A stretch of 64,000 nt of DNA, from NCBI RefSeq assembly GCF_019801145.1, contig NZ_JAHVJQ010000002.1, positions 434,001-498,000 of the forward strand, written 5' to 3'. Below, piece after piece: positions 5,751-13,321 of the stretch (the first letter of the stretch is position 1; every line of letters begins with the position of its first letter). The translations under genes and the position numbers were made by a program. The notes beneath the pieces were generated by a model, which saw only the letters and a program-made list of their open reading frames with translations, was not told the DNA's origin and made no database searches. This DNA is from Leisingera aquaemixtae (GTDB lineage Bacteria; Pseudomonadota; Alphaproteobacteria; Rhodobacterales; Rhodobacteraceae).

Positions 5751-5796
5751 TTCCTCGCAGGTTATGAAGATGCTGCACGACGTTTTAGGGATAGCC

Positions 5797-6321
5797 ATGA
5801 CAGACGCTGCAGTAGATATCGAAGCACAAGCCCAGGCCAAGAAAAGCAAACTGCCCCTGATTATCGGGGCAGTGCTGGCACTGGCGGGCGCGGGCGGCGG
5901 ATTCTTTGCCGTTCAGTCAGGCCTTCTTCCCTTTGGTCAGAAAGCGGCGCCAGAACCGGTGCCCGCGGCCGAAGCGGCGCCAGAAGGCGTGGACAGTGGT
6001 GAGACGGCGGAGGATATCGCCAATCTTGCCTTTATCGAAATGGACCCGATTCTGATTACCCTGCGCAAAGCCAGCGGTTTGAAGCATTTGCGGTTCCGAG
6101 CACAACTTGAGGTCGGCCTGGAGCACCAGGCCGAGGTTGAAAAAATCCTCCCGCGGGTTGTCGATGTCCTGAACAGCTACCTGAGAGCATTGGAGCTTGA
6201 GGATCTTTCCGATCCGATGGCACTGCCGAAACTGAGAGCGCAGATGCTGCGGCGGATCAACATTGCCACCGGCCAGGGCCGGGTGCGTGATCTGCTGATC
6301 ATGGATTTCGTACTGAACTAG
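5797..6321 (+). CDS. fliL: Flagellar basal-body protein FliL (copy 1)
   Basis: 174 residues from the preferred ATG at 5797 (MTDAAVDIEAQAQAKKSKLP), which has AGGGA six bases upstream; an ATG at 5764 has a poorer site. A short charged cytoplasmic tail, one membrane segment (LPLIIGAVLALAGAGGGFFA, about residues 20-40), a Pro/Ala/Glu linker and the periplasmic FliL domain (FIEMDPILITLRKASGLKHL onward; ends RVRDLLIMDFVLN) are visible. FliL rings stabilise stators around the motor. A second FliL-like gene lies at 15663-16160. This copy heads the motA-containing plus-strand operon. Confidence 0.93.
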   Translation: MTDAAVDIEAQAQAKKSKLPLIIGAVLALAGAGGGFFAVQSGLLPFGQKAAPEPVPAAEAAPEGVDSGETAEDIANLAFIEMDPILITLRKASGLKHLRFRAQLEVGLEHQAEVEKILPRVVDVLNSYLRALELEDLSDPMALPKLRAQMLRRINIATGQGRVRDLLIMDFVLN

Positions 6322-6330
6322 GAGGACAGG

Positions 6331-6777
6331 ATGGACATTATTGCTGATATCCTGCTTGCAGCCGGAGCGCTGGGCGCCGGATTCTACTGTCTGGTGCTGT
6401 CGCGCCGGCTGAAGCGGTTCAATGACCTGGAAAAAGGCGTGGGCGGGGCGGTTGCTGTGCTGTCTGCGCAAGTGGACGATCTGAACAAGTCGCTGCAATC
6501 GGCGCAGCATGTTTCCGACGGATCCAGCAAGGCTTTGCAGCAGCTGACCGGGCGCGCCGAATCGGTGGCTCAGCGGCTGGAGCTGATGATGGCTTCCATG
6601 CACGACATTCCGGAGGCCGGCACTGCGGCAGCGCCCGCTCCGGCGGCAGCGGAAGACGCGGAGATGGCGGCTGCTTACGAGGCTGGTCCGCAGCCTGCTG
6701 ACGAGCCGCAGGAAGAGCCCAAGTCTTCCGGTCTGATGTTTGTGCGCCACAACCGCAGCCAGAACCGGGTGGCGTGA
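6331..6777 (+). CDS. Small single-pass coiled-coil protein in the motor operon
   Basis: 148 residues. An N-terminal membrane segment (about 5-25, ending at the basic LSRRLKRF) is followed by a helical stretch with heptad-like spacing (about 30-95) and an Ala/Pro/Glu-rich acidic tail. GGAGG nine bases upstream supports the ATG at 6331. It is placed between fliL and a motE-like gene, overlapping the latter. Proteins like this occur in alphaproteobacterial flagellar clusters as domains of unknown function (I tentatively think of the DUF6468 group, not confirmed). Membrane anchoring beside stator genes suggests a motor role; this is inference. Confidence 0.7.
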   Translation: MDIIADILLAAGALGAGFYCLVLSRRLKRFNDLEKGVGGAVAVLSAQVDDLNKSLQSAQHVSDGSSKALQQLTGRAESVAQRLELMMASMHDIPEAGTAAAPAPAAAEDAEMAAAYEAGPQPADEPQEEPKSSGLMFVRHNRSQNRVA

Positions 6778-7391
6778 TGGCGAAGGCGGCTAAGAAAACC
6801 AGGCGCTTCCGGCGCAGCGGCACGCTGACGATGCTGGCGGTGCTGCTGATGGGCTCCGCGGCGGTGCGGCTTGGGCTTGAGGCGGGGCCGGCAATTGCCC
6901 GTGAGGTCGCCAGCCTGCAAGAGACTGGCGGCGACTCTCCTGCACACAAAGGCGAGCCGCTCCGGGATGCGATGCCTTCGTCCGCGGAGCTGCAGACCAT
7001 GCTGGCTGCGTTTCAGCAGCGGGAGCAGGAATTGGCTGCCCGCGAAGCGGAGATCCAGGACCGCATGAAAGCGCTGGAAATTGCGGACCAGGCTATTGAC
7101 AAAAAACTCGCCGCGCTGGAGCAGGCAGAGGAAGAGCTGCGCGCGACGCTGGCGCTGGCGGATGGCGCAACCGAGGCCGATGTGACCCGGCTGACGACAG
7201 TTTACGAGCAGATGAAACCCAAGGAAGCGTCGGCGCTGTTCGAGGAAATGGACCCGGCCTTTGCGGCGGGGTTTCTGGCCCGGATGCAGCCTGAGGCCGC
7301 GGCGGGAATCATGGCCGGGCTCAGCCCCGAAGCCGCCTATACCATCAGCGTGGTTCTGGCAGGGCGCAACGGATCCGTGCCCACGGAGTAA
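6777..7391 (+). CDS. motE: MotE-like motor chaperone (MgtE N-terminal-type fold)
   Basis: 204 residues. The ATG at 6777 overlaps the upstream TGA; a GTG one codon earlier is possible. A basic N terminus and signal anchor (about 14-38) are followed by a long coiled coil (about 70-130) and a C-terminal helical repeat with YEQMKPKEASALFEEMDP and RMQPEAAAGIMAGLSPEAA, the pattern of the MgtE intracellular N-domain found in MotE. In Sinorhizobium MotE is the periplasmic chaperone of MotC, which binds MotB. No MotC-like sequence is obvious here, but the large secreted protein at 8336 occupies that position. The name is by family resemblance. Confidence 0.8.
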   Translation: MAKAAKKTRRFRRSGTLTMLAVLLMGSAAVRLGLEAGPAIAREVASLQETGGDSPAHKGEPLRDAMPSSAELQTMLAAFQQREQELAAREAEIQDRMKALEIADQAIDKKLAALEQAEEELRATLALADGATEADVTRLTTVYEQMKPKEASALFEEMDPAFAAGFLARMQPEAAAGIMAGLSPEAAYTISVVLAGRNGSVPTE

Positions 7392-7406
7392 CTTGGGCGC
7401 GGCGGC

Positions 7407-7421
7407 TTAGTCATTCCTTAG
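7407..7421 (+). promoter_or_regulatory. CtrA-like site upstream of motA
   Basis: TTAG (7407-7410), seven bases, TTAG (7418-7421), 49 bases before the motA start. Each half differs from TTAA at the last base only. It lies in a 78-base gap inside an otherwise overlapping gene string, so it could give motA its own promoter. Confidence 0.5.
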
Positions 7422-7469
7422 GAAGACTCGCCTAATCTTATAAAAACCAACGGAATTCGGAGTGGACCT

Positions 7470-8339
7470 ATGATCGGGATTGTAGGCATTGTGGTGATCT
7501 TTGCCATGGTGTTCGGCGGATACCTTCTGGCCGGCGGCAAGATGGCGATCATCCTGAAGTCGCTGCCGTTTGAGATGATGATGATTGGCGGGGCAGCTGT
7601 CGGGGCCTTCCTGATTGCCAACGATATGGGTGGTGTCAAACACACGCTCAAGGACATCGGAAAGGTGTTCAAAGGCCCCAAGTGGAAGCCGGATGACTAC
7701 CGTGATCTTCTCTGCCTGCTGTTTGCGCTGATTCGCATTGCCCGGGCCAACCCTGTCGAGGTGGAGCAGCATATCGAAGACCCGGAAAACTCCTCTGTCT
7801 TCAACAAGTACCCCAAAATTCTGGCCGACAAGGAAGCGGTGAACCTGATCTGCGACACCATGCGCTCAGCCTCTATGAACTACGATGACCCGCACCAAGT
7901 TGAGGAAGTTCTGGAAAAGCGGATGGAAGCCAACCTGCACCACGCTCTGCACTCCAGCCACGCCCTGCAGACGATGGCCGATGGCCTGCCTGCACTGGGG
8001 ATCGTCGCCGCGGTTCTGGGGGTTATCAAGACCATGGGATCGATCGACCAGCCGCCTGAAGTTCTCGGCAAGCTGATTGGCGGCGCGCTGGTGGGTACTT
8101 TCCTGGGCGTTTTCTTGTCTTACGGCCTGGTTGCACCCTTTGCGGGCAAGGTGAAGGCCGTGGTCGAAGAGGATGCCCATTTCTATCAGCTGATCCGTGA
8201 GGTGCTGGTGGCCAACCTGCACAATCATGCGGCGGCCATCTGTATCGAGGTCGGGCGCCAGAATACTCCCTCGCACTTCCGTCCCGGCTTCTCGGAACTT
8301 GAAGAAGCCCTCAAATCGGTGAAACAGGACGCAGCATGA
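7470..8339 (+). CDS. motA: Flagellar motor stator protein MotA
   Basis: 289 residues, typical of proton-type MotA. Two membrane segments lie at the N terminus (about 3-20 and 30-50), a large cytoplasmic loop follows with the charged motif region HHALHSSHALQTMADGLPAL, and two further segments follow (GIVAAVLGVIKTMGSI and LIGGALVGTFLGVFLSYGLV), the most conserved part of MotA. MotA with MotB forms the ion-conducting stator; motB is not in the window. The stop overlaps the start of the next gene (ATGA), tying MotA production to the unknown secreted protein. Confidence 0.97.
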   Translation: MIGIVGIVVIFAMVFGGYLLAGGKMAIILKSLPFEMMMIGGAAVGAFLIANDMGGVKHTLKDIGKVFKGPKWKPDDYRDLLCLLFALIRIARANPVEVEQHIEDPENSSVFNKYPKILADKEAVNLICDTMRSASMNYDDPHQVEEVLEKRMEANLHHALHSSHALQTMADGLPALGIVAAVLGVIKTMGSIDQPPEVLGKLIGGALVGTFLGVFLSYGLVAPFAGKVKAVVEEDAHFYQLIREVLVANLHNHAAAICIEVGRQNTPSHFRPGFSELEEALKSVKQDAA

Positions 8340-10798
8340 TCTGGCGAGCATTTGCCACTGCAGCCGTTCTTCTGACGGCAGGCGCTGCCCAGGCGCAGAC
8401 GATTGTGACCCGCTCGGGCGAGCATAAGGGGTTCACGCGTCTGGTGATGCGGCTGCCGCAAGGCGCAGATTGGTCGCTGACACAAAGCGGAATGACGGCG
8501 ACGGTGAACATCGGTGCGCCGGAAGCGGTTTTCGACACGTCGCGGGTTTTTAATCTGATCCCCCGGACCAGGCTTCAATCACTGGCGCAAAACGGCCCTG
8601 GCCAGCCGTTGAGGCTGCAGTTGGGATGCGATTGCACCGTCACCTCCTATGTGCAGGAAGACGGTTATCTGGTGGTCGATATCCGCGATGGGGGCCGGCC
8701 GGGCGGAAAACAGCAGCGTACATTTGCGGGAAATGTTCTGCCCCTCACAACCCCGCTGCCGCAGACCGGCTACCGGTTCAATTTTCCTCAGTCGGCCGAA
8801 ACAGATGCAAGGCTGGCGCTGGAGCTGGCAGCGGCACTGGCCGGCCAGCAGGGGCGGTCCCAAACGGTTCAGCCGCAGCTAGAGACTGAGCCGGCAATTG
8901 CGGAAACCGAATCTGGCGCTGCGGATGAACCGTTGGCCGAGGCTGCAGAGCCAGGCCTGAAGACGGACGGCAGCCAGCCTGCATTGGAGGCGGATGTCCA
9001 GACAGAGAAGACGGTCCTCGAAATTCCTGAAACCGATTTTCTTATCGATATGGAAGAAACCGAACGTGCTGCGACGGTAAACGAATCCGAGCAGCGGTTG
9101 CTGCAGCAGATCGGCCGGGCAGCGAGCCAGGGTCTTTTGAATGTTGCTGAAGAAGGGCTGGCGGATGCCGGCAGGGCTGCCGGACTTGACCCGCTTGGCG
9201 CAGCGGACAGGCCCCTGAACCCGCTTGCGCATATTTCTGTCACCTCAGCGATCGACCGTGAGACCGGGCTGGTTGCGGCCTCGTCTGGCAACCGCGGCGA
9301 GGCGTCCCACTGTCTTCCGGACCGCGACGTCGCGATTCAGTCCTGGGGCAATGAAAGCCCGTTTGCGGATCAGCTGGCACCTCTGCGCAATGCCCTGGTG
9401 CATGAATTCGATGACGTGAATCCGGCTAGTGTCTATGCTCTTGCGCGGCTCTACCTTTATTTCAGCTTCGGGGCTGAAGCGCGTTCGATTATGACAATTT
9501 TGCCGCCAGAACAGCGCAATGAACCCGAAGTCGCTTTGCTGGGGACGATGGCATTGCTGATGGATGGCACCGCATTGCCGGTCAATCATGCGCTCTCCGG
9601 GCAGCAAGGCTGTGAGAGCGACAGCGCGTTCTGGGGTGCATTGGCCGATGGAGTGATCAAGAAAAGCGCCAATACCGATGCCATCCAGCAGACGTTTTCC
9701 AAGCTGCCGCCGCATTTGAGGGTGCATTTTGGCCCCAAGATCAGCACGATGTTTGCCGACGCCGGAGAGCACCACGTTGCCGAAGCTGTGCTGCGTTCAG
9801 TGGACCGGACCGGGGTGGAAGACGTCCCTGAGATCAATCTGGCCGAAGCAGCAATCGCCGAATTGGAAGGCGACACCGAAAAGATGGCCGAGGAACTGAC
9901 CAGCGAAGTCGCGGAGAGGACCGGGAATGCTCCCGCAGCGCTGATTGATCTGGTGGCTCTAAGCGTCAAAGAACGCAAGGCGCTTTCGCCTGATGTGCCG
10001 GACCTGATCGCCTCTTACGAGCTGGAGCACCGCGACACGGAACTTGGCGCGGAACTGCGCCGCGCCCACGTTGCCTCGCTGGCACTGATGGGGGAGTTTC
10101 ACGGTGCCTTCAGGGAACTGAACAGCGTGAGCGACAGGGACGGGCCGAAAGCGCGGGCAGCAGCCCTGGAACCGCTAATGCTGCTGCTGGCAGAACGAGC
10201 CGATGATGTGACGTTCCTGCAGTACGCGCTGGTTTTTTCCGCGCAGGCGACCCCGGCTGAGGCAGCACCCGTGGCCGCGCAGGTAGCGCGCAGGCTGCTG
10301 AACCTGGGCTTTGCGAGACAAGCTCAGGACCTGCTTACCAAACTTGCTCTTGAGCCTGAGAACGAAACCCGACGCCTGCTGATGGCTGAAGCTGCCCTGG
10401 GCCAGGACAGGCCGCACCGGGCGCTGGTTGAGCTCATGGGGCTGGAAGGGTCAGAAGCCAACCGCATGCGTGCGCAAGCATTGTGGCGCAACGGTGAATT
10501 CGGCCGGGCCGGGGAATACCTGCTGGCCGAAGATGACGCGGACGCGGCTGCCCGGGGTTTTTGGCATTCCGAGAACCTGGGGGCAATTGAGGCCATCGGG
10601 GCAGATTCCGGTGCGGCGTTCGGAGCGGTTGCTTCGGTCACAACGCAAATCGGTGAAACCGCCAAAGACCCCGAAGGACTAGCGCCTTTGGCCCACGCGC
10701 GGGCGCTGGTCGAAAGCAGTGCAGGTACGCGAGGCGGCATAGCAGAACTGCTGAACCAAGTGGGCACAGGACGCGGAAATCCTGAGGTAAGCCAGTGA
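8336..10798 (+). CDS. Large secreted protein of unknown function coupled to motA
   Basis: 820 residues. A Sec signal peptide (about 1-20, ending AAQA) is followed by a beta-rich segment (about 22-120: GFTRLVMRLP, CDCTVTSYVQEDGYLVVDIRD) that looks like an AMIN-type domain, which in other proteins binds envelope polymers. Then come a Glu/Ala-rich low-complexity linker (about 150-330) and a long helical region (about 350-800) with TPR/Sel1-like spacing. I do not recognise a named family. The 4-bp overlap with motA, export to the periplasm and an upstream MotE-like chaperone make it a candidate functional counterpart of MotC; this is inference. It ends before a strong hairpin, closing the fliL-motA operon. 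Confidence 0.8.
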   Translation: MIWRAFATAAVLLTAGAAQAQTIVTRSGEHKGFTRLVMRLPQGADWSLTQSGMTATVNIGAPEAVFDTSRVFNLIPRTRLQSLAQNGPGQPLRLQLGCDCTVTSYVQEDGYLVVDIRDGGRPGGKQQRTFAGNVLPLTTPLPQTGYRFNFPQSAETDARLALELAAALAGQQGRSQTVQPQLETEPAIAETESGAADEPLAEAAEPGLKTDGSQPALEADVQTEKTVLEIPETDFLIDMEETERAATVNESEQRLLQQIGRAASQGLLNVAEEGLADAGRAAGLDPLGAADRPLNPLAHISVTSAIDRETGLVAASSGNRGEASHCLPDRDVAIQSWGNESPFADQLAPLRNALVHEFDDVNPASVYALARLYLYFSFGAEARSIMTILPPEQRNEPEVALLGTMALLMDGTALPVNHALSGQQGCESDSAFWGALADGVIKKSANTDAIQQTFSKLPPHLRVHFGPKISTMFADAGEHHVAEAVLRSVDRTGVEDVPEINLAEAAIAELEGDTEKMAEELTSEVAERTGNAPAALIDLVALSVKERKALSPDVPDLIASYELEHRDTELGAELRRAHVASLALMGEFHGAFRELNSVSDRDGPKARAAALEPLMLLLAERADDVTFLQYALVFSAQATPAEAAPVAAQVARRLLNLGFARQAQDLLTKLALEPENETRRLLMAEAALGQDRPHRALVELMGLEGSEANRMRAQALWRNGEFGRAGEYLLAEDDADAAARGFWHSENLGAIEAIGADSGAAFGAVASVTTQIGETAKDPEGLAPLAHARALVESSAGTRGGIAELLNQVGTGRGNPEVSQ

Positions 10799-10822
10799 CC
10801 TGAACAGGGATGCACGGCTTGT

Positions 10823-10847
10823 AGGCCGCCTTGTCTCAAGGCGGCCT
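10823..10847 (+). terminator. Strong hairpin after the motA-linked gene
   Basis: AGGCCGCCTTG (10823-10833) pairs perfectly with CAAGGCGGCCT (10837-10847) around a 3-base loop, 24 bases past the stop. Only TTGGT follows, so it may act as a Rho-assisted terminator. Confidence 0.65.
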
Positions 10848-11227
10848 TGGTCCCCGATGATAACACTTTGTCAACCGGCTGCCGGTAACGTGACAAACGG
10901 GTGAATCCTGATTTGGAACGGGCAGAATGCCGGAAAACTACTCGAAAAAATGCCCGAACGGGCTGATTCTGCGCGCAACAGGCGCAGAGAGCAGAGCGGC
11001 AGCTCTGCTGAAACTTATTCCCATAGCTGCTTCGTCCTGCTGCCAGCCGGCTGCAGCGGCTGTTGCTGATGCAGTTTCCTTACAGACAGCAGCCGGGCGG
11101 CCTTTTGTGCGGCGTGAGCCGGAGCTGGGTGTCCGCCGTTTGAACAAGCCTCGTCTCACGCTGTCTCCATTACGGTGCAGCCAGGCTTCCAACCCGTTGA
11201 AAGCAATCCAGAAGCGGGGCTTGAACA
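10848..11227. other. Long leader region before flhA
   Basis: About 380 bases separate the preceding hairpin from flhA, unusually long for this compact cluster. A plus-strand open frame at 10927-11235 (102 codons) overlaps the flhA start by 8 bases, and a minus-strand frame at 10938-11228 covers the same ground. Neither has a good ribosome site or a recognisable sequence, so I treat both as unproven. The region presumably holds the flhA promoter. Confidence 0.4.
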
Positions 11228-13321
11228 TTGCCTAAGCTGACAACTGAACAACTTTTCAGCCCGACTGTGCTTCTGGCGCTGGCTTTGATGGCGATCATTG
11301 TGATGATGATCCTGCCAATGCCGGCCTGGGTGCTGGATGTCGGCCTGGCGGCCTCTTTTGCGCTGGCCATCCTGATTTTCACAATCACGCTGTTCATCGA
11401 GCGGCCGTTGGACTTTTCGTCGTTTCCGACGATTTTGCTGGCTTCGCTGATGCTGCGATTGTCGCTGAACGTGTCCTCGACCAAGCTGATCATCGGACAA
11501 GGGCATACCGGCACCGACGCAGCGGGCAATGTGATCGAGGGCTTTGCCCAGTTTGTTATGGGGGGCAGCGTCTTCCTCGGGCTGGTGGTGTTCGGCGTTC
11601 TGCTGATCGTCAACTTCATGGTGATCACCAAGGGTGCCGCGCGGATGGCCGAGGTGGGTGCCCGCTTTGCGCTGGACGGGATGCCCGGCAAACAGCTTGC
11701 AATCGACGCGGATATGTCGGCCGGGGCCATCGACCATCAGACCGCCAAGGAGCGCCGGGAACGCGACCAGCAGGAAACCACCTTCTTCGGCTCGCTGGAC
11801 GGCGCGTCGAAGTTCGTCAAGGGCGATGCCATTGCCGGTTTGCTGATCACCCTGCTGAACCTGGTCATGGGGCTGATCATGGGCGTTCTGGTCCATGGAA
11901 TGCCGGTTGGCAACGCGTTTGAAACCTACGCAATTCTCACGGTTGGCGACGGTCTGGTGTCGCAGATCCCGTCCGTGATCATTTCGATTGCCGCTGCGCT
12001 GCTGCTGGCCCGCGGCGGCACCACCGGTGCCACAGACATTGCCCTGTTCGAGCAATTCGGCCGCCACCCTGCCGCGCTGACGACGGTTGCGGTTCTCATG
12101 GTGCTGTTCGCGCTGGTTCCGGGCCTCCCCTTCCTGCCTTTTGTGATCGGCGGCGGGGTGCTTGGCTATACTGCGTTCCGGATGGCCAAGAAAAAGAAGG
12201 ACGACGCCGAAGCCGAGATCGAAGAGAAGATCGAAGAGGCGTCCGACCCGGCTGCATCGCGGCCGTTGGGCGACATCCTCGACCTTGACGACCTGCATCT
12301 GGAATTTGCACCGGACCTAGTGAGCATGGTGCTGGATGCCGGAACCGGTCTGGATGCACGCATAGCCAATATGCGGTCTCATATTGCCACCACATTCGGC
12401 CTGATTCTTCCCGAGATCCGTCTCACCGACCAGAATGAACTGGATAGGGGAACCTATTTGATCAAAGTGCAGGGCGTTGAACAGGCCCGCGGCACGTTGC
12501 ATCCCGACATGGTTCTGGCACTGATGCCTGACAATCACGATGCGCTGCCAGCCGGCACCGATGTGACAGAGCCGGTTTATGGCGCGCCTGCCCGCTGGAT
12601 TTCCGCCAAGGCGCAGGAGCAGGCCGCCCTGTCCGGGGCGACCGTTGTCACCCCGCCGGAGATTTTGGCGACCCATCTTTTGGAAACCATCAAGCAGAAT
12701 TTCCCGCGCCTGCTGACGCTCAAGTCGCTGCGCCGCCTCCTGGACGAGATGACCCAGCTGTCCGATGGCTTCCGCTCTGAGTCAAACCGTAAACTGCTGG
12801 ATGCGCTGGTGCCGGACAAGGTTCCGATGGATACTCTTCATGCGGTGCTGCGGCTGCTGCTGGAGGAACGGGTGTCTATCCGAAACATGCCGCTGATCCT
12901 TGAATCGATTGCAGAGGCGCGGATGCACACAACCCAGCCGGAGATGATCTGCGAGCATGTGCGCCAGCGGCTGGGCTTCCAGCTTGTGGCTGAGATGAAG
13001 CGCGACGATGGTACCATTCCGCTGATCCAGCTGGCGCCGGAATGGGAGGACAAGTTCTCCACCTATCAAGTGGACGCGCAGGGGGCTGGCCTCGATATTG
13101 CCTTGCCGCCTGACTTGTTCAACAGGCTTGCGGACGGGCTGAGTGACAAACTGGGCACCACGACGGATCAGGGTGTCTTCGCCGCGGTGGTGACCTCAAC
13201 CCGCCGCCGCCGGTATCTTAAGACCATTCTGAAGTCCCGCGGCATCAGCAATCCTGTGCTTTCGTTTGAGGAAATCGGCCTCGAGGCGCGTCCGGCCCTC
13301 GTCGGGATGGTTCAGGCATGA
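11228..13321 (+). CDS. flhA: Flagellar export gate protein FlhA
   Basis: 697 residues, the usual FlhA length. The start appears to be TTG at 11228 (MPKLTTEQLFSP), because an in-frame stop lies immediately upstream and no ATG precedes the first membrane segment; the ribosome site is weak. The N-terminal half has about eight membrane segments and the FHIPEP signature around residues 139-169 (RMAEVGARFALDGMPGKQ). The C-terminal half is the cytoplasmic FlhA-C ring that docks chaperone-substrate complexes. The stop overlaps fliR, which overlaps flhB, giving a coupled flhA-fliR-flhB export-gate operon. Confidence 0.97.
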   Translation: MPKLTTEQLFSPTVLLALALMAIIVMMILPMPAWVLDVGLAASFALAILIFTITLFIERPLDFSSFPTILLASLMLRLSLNVSSTKLIIGQGHTGTDAAGNVIEGFAQFVMGGSVFLGLVVFGVLLIVNFMVITKGAARMAEVGARFALDGMPGKQLAIDADMSAGAIDHQTAKERRERDQQETTFFGSLDGASKFVKGDAIAGLLITLLNLVMGLIMGVLVHGMPVGNAFETYAILTVGDGLVSQIPSVIISIAAALLLARGGTTGATDIALFEQFGRHPAALTTVAVLMVLFALVPGLPFLPFVIGGGVLGYTAFRMAKKKKDDAEAEIEEKIEEASDPAASRPLGDILDLDDLHLEFAPDLVSMVLDAGTGLDARIANMRSHIATTFGLILPEIRLTDQNELDRGTYLIKVQGVEQARGTLHPDMVLALMPDNHDALPAGTDVTEPVYGAPARWISAKAQEQAALSGATVVTPPEILATHLLETIKQNFPRLLTLKSLRRLLDEMTQLSDGFRSESNRKLLDALVPDKVPMDTLHAVLRLLLEERVSIRNMPLILESIAEARMHTTQPEMICEHVRQRLGFQLVAEMKRDDGTIPLIQLAPEWEDKFSTYQVDAQGAGLDIALPPDLFNRLADGLSDKLGTTTDQGVFAAVVTSTRRRRYLKTILKSRGISNPVLSFEEIGLEARPALVGMVQA

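Follow-up and report, generated by a model that had tools for sequence, protein, structure and literature searches.

The flagellar gene cluster of Leisingera aquaemixtae raises the question of what a very large exported protein does when its gene directly follows motA. The window analyzed here is the whole stretch of 64,000 nucleotides from contig NZ_JAHVJQ010000002.1 (assembly GCF_019801145.1, positions 434,001 to 498,000, forward strand), and the protein in question has 820 residues. In the first-pass annotation of this DNA, a MotE-like gene, motA and the gene for the large protein were described as contiguous, the last overlapping motA by 4 bp, and the coordinates of the open reading frames (ORFs) agree with this. 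The same annotation regarded the protein as possibly new and without a recognized name, which had to be given up: it is a part of the flagellar motor that was already published as MotK in 2024 (PMC10954123) and as CP4 in 2025 (PMC12363192). With a probability of roughly 0.88, which also takes in its contacts to MotE, MotB and the cell wall, the protein is an orthologue of MotK (CP4) and serves as a scaffold in the periplasm for the flagellar motor of Alphaproteobacteria.

Identification as MotK

The gene order in the window, fliL-pflI-motE-motA-X, equals the published motK order, and on this ground X was marked as MotK. In the Fla2 system of Cereibacter sphaeroides the order is reported as fliL2-pflI-motE-motA2-motK (PMC10954123), and the mutant table for Phaeobacter inhibens gives CP2-CP3-motA-CP4 (PMC12363192). 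Most likely, CP2 corresponds to PflI, CP3 to MotE and CP4 to MotK, none of them being an innovation of the Rhodobacterales. The main text of PMC12363192 contains neither the words MotE, MotK and PflI nor the name of the first author of the 2024 MotK paper; with the present reading, the CP1-4 study of Phaeobacter from 2025 and the MotK study from 2024 are connected as descriptions of one gene.

The C. sphaeroides protein was described as 652 residues long. A signal sequence is followed by an N terminus rich in beta structure, for which the AmiC AMIN domain served as the model, and the C terminus resembles tetratricopeptide repeats (TPR). The protein is periplasmic, binds MotE and, more weakly, MotB2, and forms a polar focus that depends on MotA2 and MotB2. 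Its loss severely reduces the level of MotE, and it is needed for rotation, the motK mutants being flagellated and paralyzed (PMC10954123). In P. inhibens, CP4 (PGA1_c35690) is essential for swimming; the mutant table contains six insertions in CP4 that are non-motile, and swimming of the CP mutants was restored by complementation (PMC12363192). The protein had been proposed to be a stator-associated wall-binding protein. The first half of this proposal stands, as the C. sphaeroides experiments make MotK a stator-associated periplasmic partner of MotE (PMC10954123), and the second half, wall binding, is probable.

Domain structure

A family alignment (A3) combines the window sequence with 48 sequences from the 79 named loci. 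The 31 loci omitted were 4 with truncated or doubtful starts (L082, L087, L094, L106) and 27 that were redundant; nine rows (L091, L099, L102, L104, L105, L107, L111, L115, L117) have a GTG or TTG as their first codon, and their true start probably lies further downstream. A further alignment (A6) holds 42 of these 49 sequences. Searches of Pfam, NCBIfam, PHROGs and PDB sequences with the 820-residue protein led to no family, giving a weak TPR match and one weak PHROG match. A match to HepT was also weak and was taken as chance.

The full-length AlphaFold model, built with 49 sequences, had a mean predicted local distance difference test (pLDDT) score of 81.1. It consists of a beta-sandwich, a largely disordered linker, a long array of helices and a final long helix (Table 1). 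This bears out the AMIN-like N terminus followed by helical repeats that had been read from the sequence, both parts being modelled mostly with pLDDT above 90. By eye, the N terminus resembles a Sec signal, with AQA before residue 21.

Residues 21-120, modelled separately, reached a mean pLDDT of 95.7. Among the 50 PDB matches listed for this region, the highest template modelling (TM) scores were those of PilQ, 0.73 for 4aqz (B2) and 0.65 for 4av2, followed by the small heat-shock protein 4zja (0.62) and AmiC 4bin (0.61). The A3 profile also matched short ORFs in genomes of the class. Eight of these were selected by us, and seven proved to be AMIN-Amidase_3 enzymes, with E-values of 1.3e-6 to 3.1e-9 in the small set and 9.9e-4 to 2.4e-6 per genome. 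An AMIN-type fold is suggested by the models for the N-terminal domain of MotK. Its signature R-x-G-x-H/Y-x-x-F/Y-S/T-R is shared by 36 of the 49 Rhodobacterales sequences and by 17 of 26 distant ones. The eighth short ORF (L221:1063-2196, minus strand; 378 residues) carries two MotK-type N-terminal domains and a weak AMIN-like match without the long helical part, and lies about 2.4 kb from motE in genome G446.

One stretch of the linker, residues 248-268, stands out by its conservation, with a mean Jensen-Shannon (JS) score of 0.540 against 0.184 and 0.265 for the flanking linker, and a predicted helix at 250-264. Since the linker and beta-sandwich of PflA of Campylobacter jejuni bind PflB (PMC12222027, PMC11870540), this stretch is a reasonable candidate for a docking site. 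In the helical part, TPR_19 was matched at E ≤ 0.01 in 14 of the 49 members. A Foldseek search against 350,542 PDB chains placed first by E-value (4.6e-05) the chain 9hmf_K, a periplasmic scaffold of the C. jejuni motor, which from its 773 residues we infer to be PflA. This top rank agrees with the literature, where MotK is grouped with PflA (PMC13023049). All 49 Rhodobacterales sequences keep the four cysteines 98, 100, 326 and 426, and 25 of the 26 distant homologues have no cysteine or one; possibly, the four form disulfides specific to the order.

Proposed role at the motor

MotK would be exported by Sec to the periplasm, where its C-terminal helical part would contact the MotE ring near the MS ring. 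The N-terminal AMIN domain, held on the flexible linker, would reach the peptidoglycan and the periplasmic part of MotB, and MotA/MotB units would thereby be recruited to the motor or switched on there. The best reading is that of a spoke, bound to the wall, that stands between the MotE ring and MotB and for which we infer wall binding through the AMIN domain, E-ring contact through the C-terminal part and the spoke-like build itself. The first-pass annotation had cited MotE as a chaperone; that it is no more than a chaperone is doubtful, as a 2026 review argues that MotE is the subunit of the E-ring (PMC13023049).

Alternatively, MotK could chiefly be an assembly factor, needed with MotE and PflI for the basal body, and the defect in rotation would be secondary. 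The mutants of P. inhibens speak for this: those in CP2 and CP3 are without detectable flagella and release FlgH alone, and the CP4 mutant releases a reduced set of flagellar proteins (PMC12363192). In contrast, motE and motK mutants of C. sphaeroides have filaments and release hook protein similarly to the parent (PMC10954123), and the P. inhibens CP4 mutant still releases FliC, FlgK and FlgE (PMC12363192). A role chiefly as an assembly factor is regarded as unlikely. Given that CP2-CP4 are probably PflI, MotE and MotK, the disagreement between the two mutant sets becomes a clear and testable question. It is observed that the results section of PMC12363192 has the CP1 and CP4 mutants still secreting hook and filament proteins, whereas its discussion instead calls CP1 and CP3 late-acting.

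The reading of the protein as MotK, acting as a wall-bound spoke, has to be weighed against several points. The absence of detectable flagella in the CP2 and CP3 mutants, as opposed to the flagellated, paralyzed motE and motK mutants of C. sphaeroides, and the reduced release by CP4 mutants are among them. Orthology with C. sphaeroides MotK and P. inhibens CP4 is drawn from gene order and from the family in relatives, because the published protein sequences were not compared directly. In the fold search with residues 21-120, no match had an E-value below 0.001 and small heat-shock proteins held the first 12 ranks by E-value, mostly with a root-mean-square deviation (rmsd) of 9-14; one of them, 4zja, equals AmiC in TM score. 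Pfam AMIN was not reached by the window protein, an AMIN-like match being found in 1 of 49 members (best 5.1e-4), and TPR_19 stayed under the cut-off on it (18.1 against 25 bits). The overall fold match to 9hmf_K was poor (TM 0.17-0.18, rmsd 41), and the next Foldseek matches were eukaryotic repeat proteins of unrelated complexes.

Relation to MotC

The protein had also been proposed as an analogue of MotC. This holds for its function, judging from the C. sphaeroides experiments (PMC10954123), and fails for its sequence. A closer relationship, in which MotK would share its ancestry with rhizobial MotC and would have gained an AMIN domain, would agree with both proteins being periplasmic partners of MotE, and the 2026 review infers such homology from structure (PMC13023049). 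For comparison, MotC sequences were taken from plasmids of Phyllobacterium, Sinorhizobium and Shinella and aligned (A7, six rows, of which L193 and L194 are a few residues short at both ends). Against this six-row alignment, profile similarity was 1.9% for the Rhodobacterales MotK and 8.6% for the distant MotK, whereas the TPR control BamD gave 1.9% and 82.7% with the same profiles, and the two MotK profiles gave 99.9% with each other. As neither MotK profile matches MotC better than BamD, homology of MotC and MotK is not supported by sequence here, with a small set of MotC. Furthermore, the MotC gene follows motB and the window motK follows motA, so that the gene does not occupy the MotC position. 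Homology to MotC is regarded as improbable. By eye, no MotC was seen at the nine MotB loci viewed, of ten taken from 8 genomes. A search for MotC in 289 genomes of the class found nothing, which is uninformative taken alone.

Distribution in the order and class

Matches to MotK were found in 144 of 196 genomes of the order. The gene adjoins motA in all 30 loci examined, the window being one, and among the 79 named loci motA is present in 78, motE in 76, pflI in 76 and fliL in 74. Moreover, of the 78 named loci with motA, 69 show it ending in ATGA, as in the 4-bp overlap with motK in the window, which argues that the coupling of motA and motK is not due to chance. The nearest relatives of the window protein in the 79 loci are ten records named Leisingera (73-77% identity) and three other Rhodobacteraceae records (73-75%). 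Locus L051, titled Nocardioides marinus, has a MotK gene 69% identical to that of the window and probably comes from a mislabelled genome.

At the class level, the A3 profile matched in 90 of 289 genomes, and in 83 of them the match was an ORF of at least 900 residues or lay within the order. FlhA was present in 81 of these 83; another 97 genomes with FlhA were without such a match, and since at most three candidates per genome were scored, a missing match means little. Of 86 MotK places (four from Rhodobacterales, including the window), 72 were on the same contig as a listed MotE match, 11 were on other contigs and 3 had no listed MotE place. In all 72 same-contig pairs motK lay on the same strand, downstream, at 0.55-6.05 kb from the MotE match. 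These data also bear on the idea of a generic periplasmic repeat protein without flagellar function, present in the cluster by accident. TPR proteins are common and the Pfam matches are weak, as such a protein would have it. This explanation is hardly credible against the position beside motA across the order and beside motE in 72 of 72 testable genomes of the class, the co-occurrence with FlhA and the published motility phenotypes of the orthologues, which contradict it.

The MotE-like protein of the window came just under the cut-off for MgtE_N (3.2e-05, 24.8 against 25.9 bits) and gave 28.8 bits with the FlbB model (9.2e-07; cut-off 110). In blastp it matched the MotE of 20 out of 20 distant loci, with E-values from 1.5e-5 to 4.1e-17. 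These 20 loci had been chosen from the best matches, so that a long ORF is present by construction and the motE neighbor is not. A class profile, built from them and 10 A3 rows, was applied to 20 other loci with MotE and no first-round MotK match. A MotK-type ORF of 945-1301 residues was found beside motE in 15 (L159-L161, L163-L169, L171, L173, L175, L177, L178) and was not found in the remaining five (L162, L170, L172, L174, L176). Overall, profile searches gave MotK-type proteins of 945-1354 residues beside motE outside Rhodobacterales. The 99.9% match between the Rhodobacterales profile and 26 distant proteins covers 432 columns, and these belong entirely to the helical part. Homologues of pflI were matched in only part of the distant loci (E 0.008 to 6e-8).

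According to PMC12363192, CP1-4 are restricted to the fla1 clusters of Rhodobacterales. The sequence distribution argues against such a restriction in the case of CP3 and CP4, and with less force in that of CP2. A preprint had already searched Alphaproteobacteria with MotK, MotC and CC_2058 (PMC11870540), and Caulobacter homologues of MotK were proposed from structure (PMC10954123); the wide distribution of MotK may already be in print, in a supplement. Other alphaproteobacteria are in this way opened for asking how wall binding is coupled to stator recruitment.

MotB-like pairs between motE and motK

The interval between motE and motK was surveyed in 35 distant loci holding both genes (the 20 best-match loci and the 15 found with the class profile). 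Two MotB-like ORFs were present in 23 and at least one in 24; cheZ-like ORFs occurred in 19 and cheY-like ORFs in 17, and none of the three kinds was found in 6. Tandem MotB-like pairs were seen at L143, L145, L149, L150, L153, L155, L163, L177 and others. In the six pairs that were scanned, MotB_plug was detected in both members every time (two members under the cut-off). An OmpA domain was found in five of the pairs, always in just one of the two proteins. By eye, one member lacks the channel aspartate in 7 of 8 pairs viewed; in L167 both members keep it. Typically, the OmpA domain and the aspartate are thus combined in one protein, and its partner is plug-only. No publication on these pairs turned up in a narrow look at the literature.

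Tentatively, with the odds somewhat against it, MotE and MotK could represent an ancestral ring-and-spoke unit of Alphaproteobacteria that can be recognized from sequence and synteny in numerous families of the class, often with its own MotB-type hetero-pair. One member of the pair would have the channel aspartate and the OmpA wall-binding domain, and the other, mostly plug region only, would depend on MotK and its AMIN domain to contact the wall. In Rhodobacterales the pair would have been replaced by motA, and fliM moved away. If true, this gives a spoke-bound, asymmetric stator or anchor.

Pfam FliM was matched in 14 of 101 genomes of the order and not in the L. aquaemixtae genome. This genome has a 441-residue protein (C1:846125-846328; L216:1051-2376, minus strand) whose C-terminal domain is of the FliM/FliN kind and whose tail is acidic and of low complexity. 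It may be a very divergent FliM, and owing to it the statement that the genome has no FliM was dropped.

Organization of the locus

The locus belongs to a Rhodobacterales flagellar cluster, with fliL and pflI upstream of motE in the same gene run (Table 1). The stop codon of pflI and the ATG of motE have one base in common; an alternative motE start is the GTG at 6774. The gap between fliL and pflI is 9 bases (6321/6331), and at that place the distant locus L155 has fliM. The pflI-position protein of L155 is above the DUF6468 cut-off. An ORF with an OmpA domain, taken as motB, lies upstream of the window at C2:430628. No sltF was found between motK and flhA (10799-11227), where a single 102-residue ORF without a Pfam match was seen; in the P. 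inhibens table sltF stands between CP4 and flhA, and its insertion mutant is non-motile (PMC12363192).

Table 1. Positions in the window of the genes of the run and of the parts of MotK
Feature	Position	Strand	Remarks
fliL	5764..6321	+	First gene of run; Pfam FliL 8.8e-14, above cut-off
pflI homologue (CP2 of Phaeobacter), 148 residues	6331..6777	+	DUF6468 0.00085, under cut-off; position matches PMC10954123
motE (CP3), 204 residues, probably of E-ring type	6777..7391	+	Hydrophobic segment at the N terminus, then a charged helical stretch; C terminus MgtE_N-like
motA, stator subunit	7470..8339	+	TIGR03818 E 3.3e-109, 364 bits, above cut-off
motK (CP4), 820 residues	8336..10798	+	ATG overlaps motA stop by 4 bp; named from its neighbors
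MotK signal peptide, residues 1-20	8336..8395	+	Judged by eye only
MotK AMIN-type beta-sandwich (predicted), residues 21-117	8396..8686	+	RSGEHKGFTRLV at 26-37; CxC (C98, C100)
MotK conserved linker stretch with predicted helix, residues 248-268	9077..9139	+	Candidate docking site
MotK helical TPR-like part, residues 343-776	9362..10663	+	Contains C426; C326 just ahead
MotK C-terminal helix, conserved part, residues 784-806	10685..10753	+	Mean JS 0.502; predicted helix 784-814
flhA, next recognized gene	11228..13321	+	FHIPEP 8.7e-225

Comparison with known systems

The closest counterpart is MotK of C. sphaeroides, which shares the gene order, the signal peptide, the AMIN-like N terminus, the disordered linker, the TPR-like C terminus and the MotE and MotA neighbors. 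It differs in length (652 residues there, 820 here), and when the published boundaries are set against our model, both the linker and the helical part are longer in Leisingera (PMC10954123). CP4 of P. inhibens has the same position after motA in a fla1-type cluster and is needed there for swimming, with sltF downstream as the difference (PMC12363192). Rhizobial MotC of Sinorhizobium, Shinella and Phyllobacterium is alike as a periplasmic MotE partner in the literature and unlike in its size of 400-441 residues, its gene position after motB and the lack of profile similarity. PflA of C. jejuni belongs to a different phylum and its overall fold match is poor; nevertheless, it resembles MotK in an N-terminal beta-sandwich (called AMIN in PMC11870540), an unstructured linker, a TPR superhelix and an E-ring protein as partner (PMC12222027).

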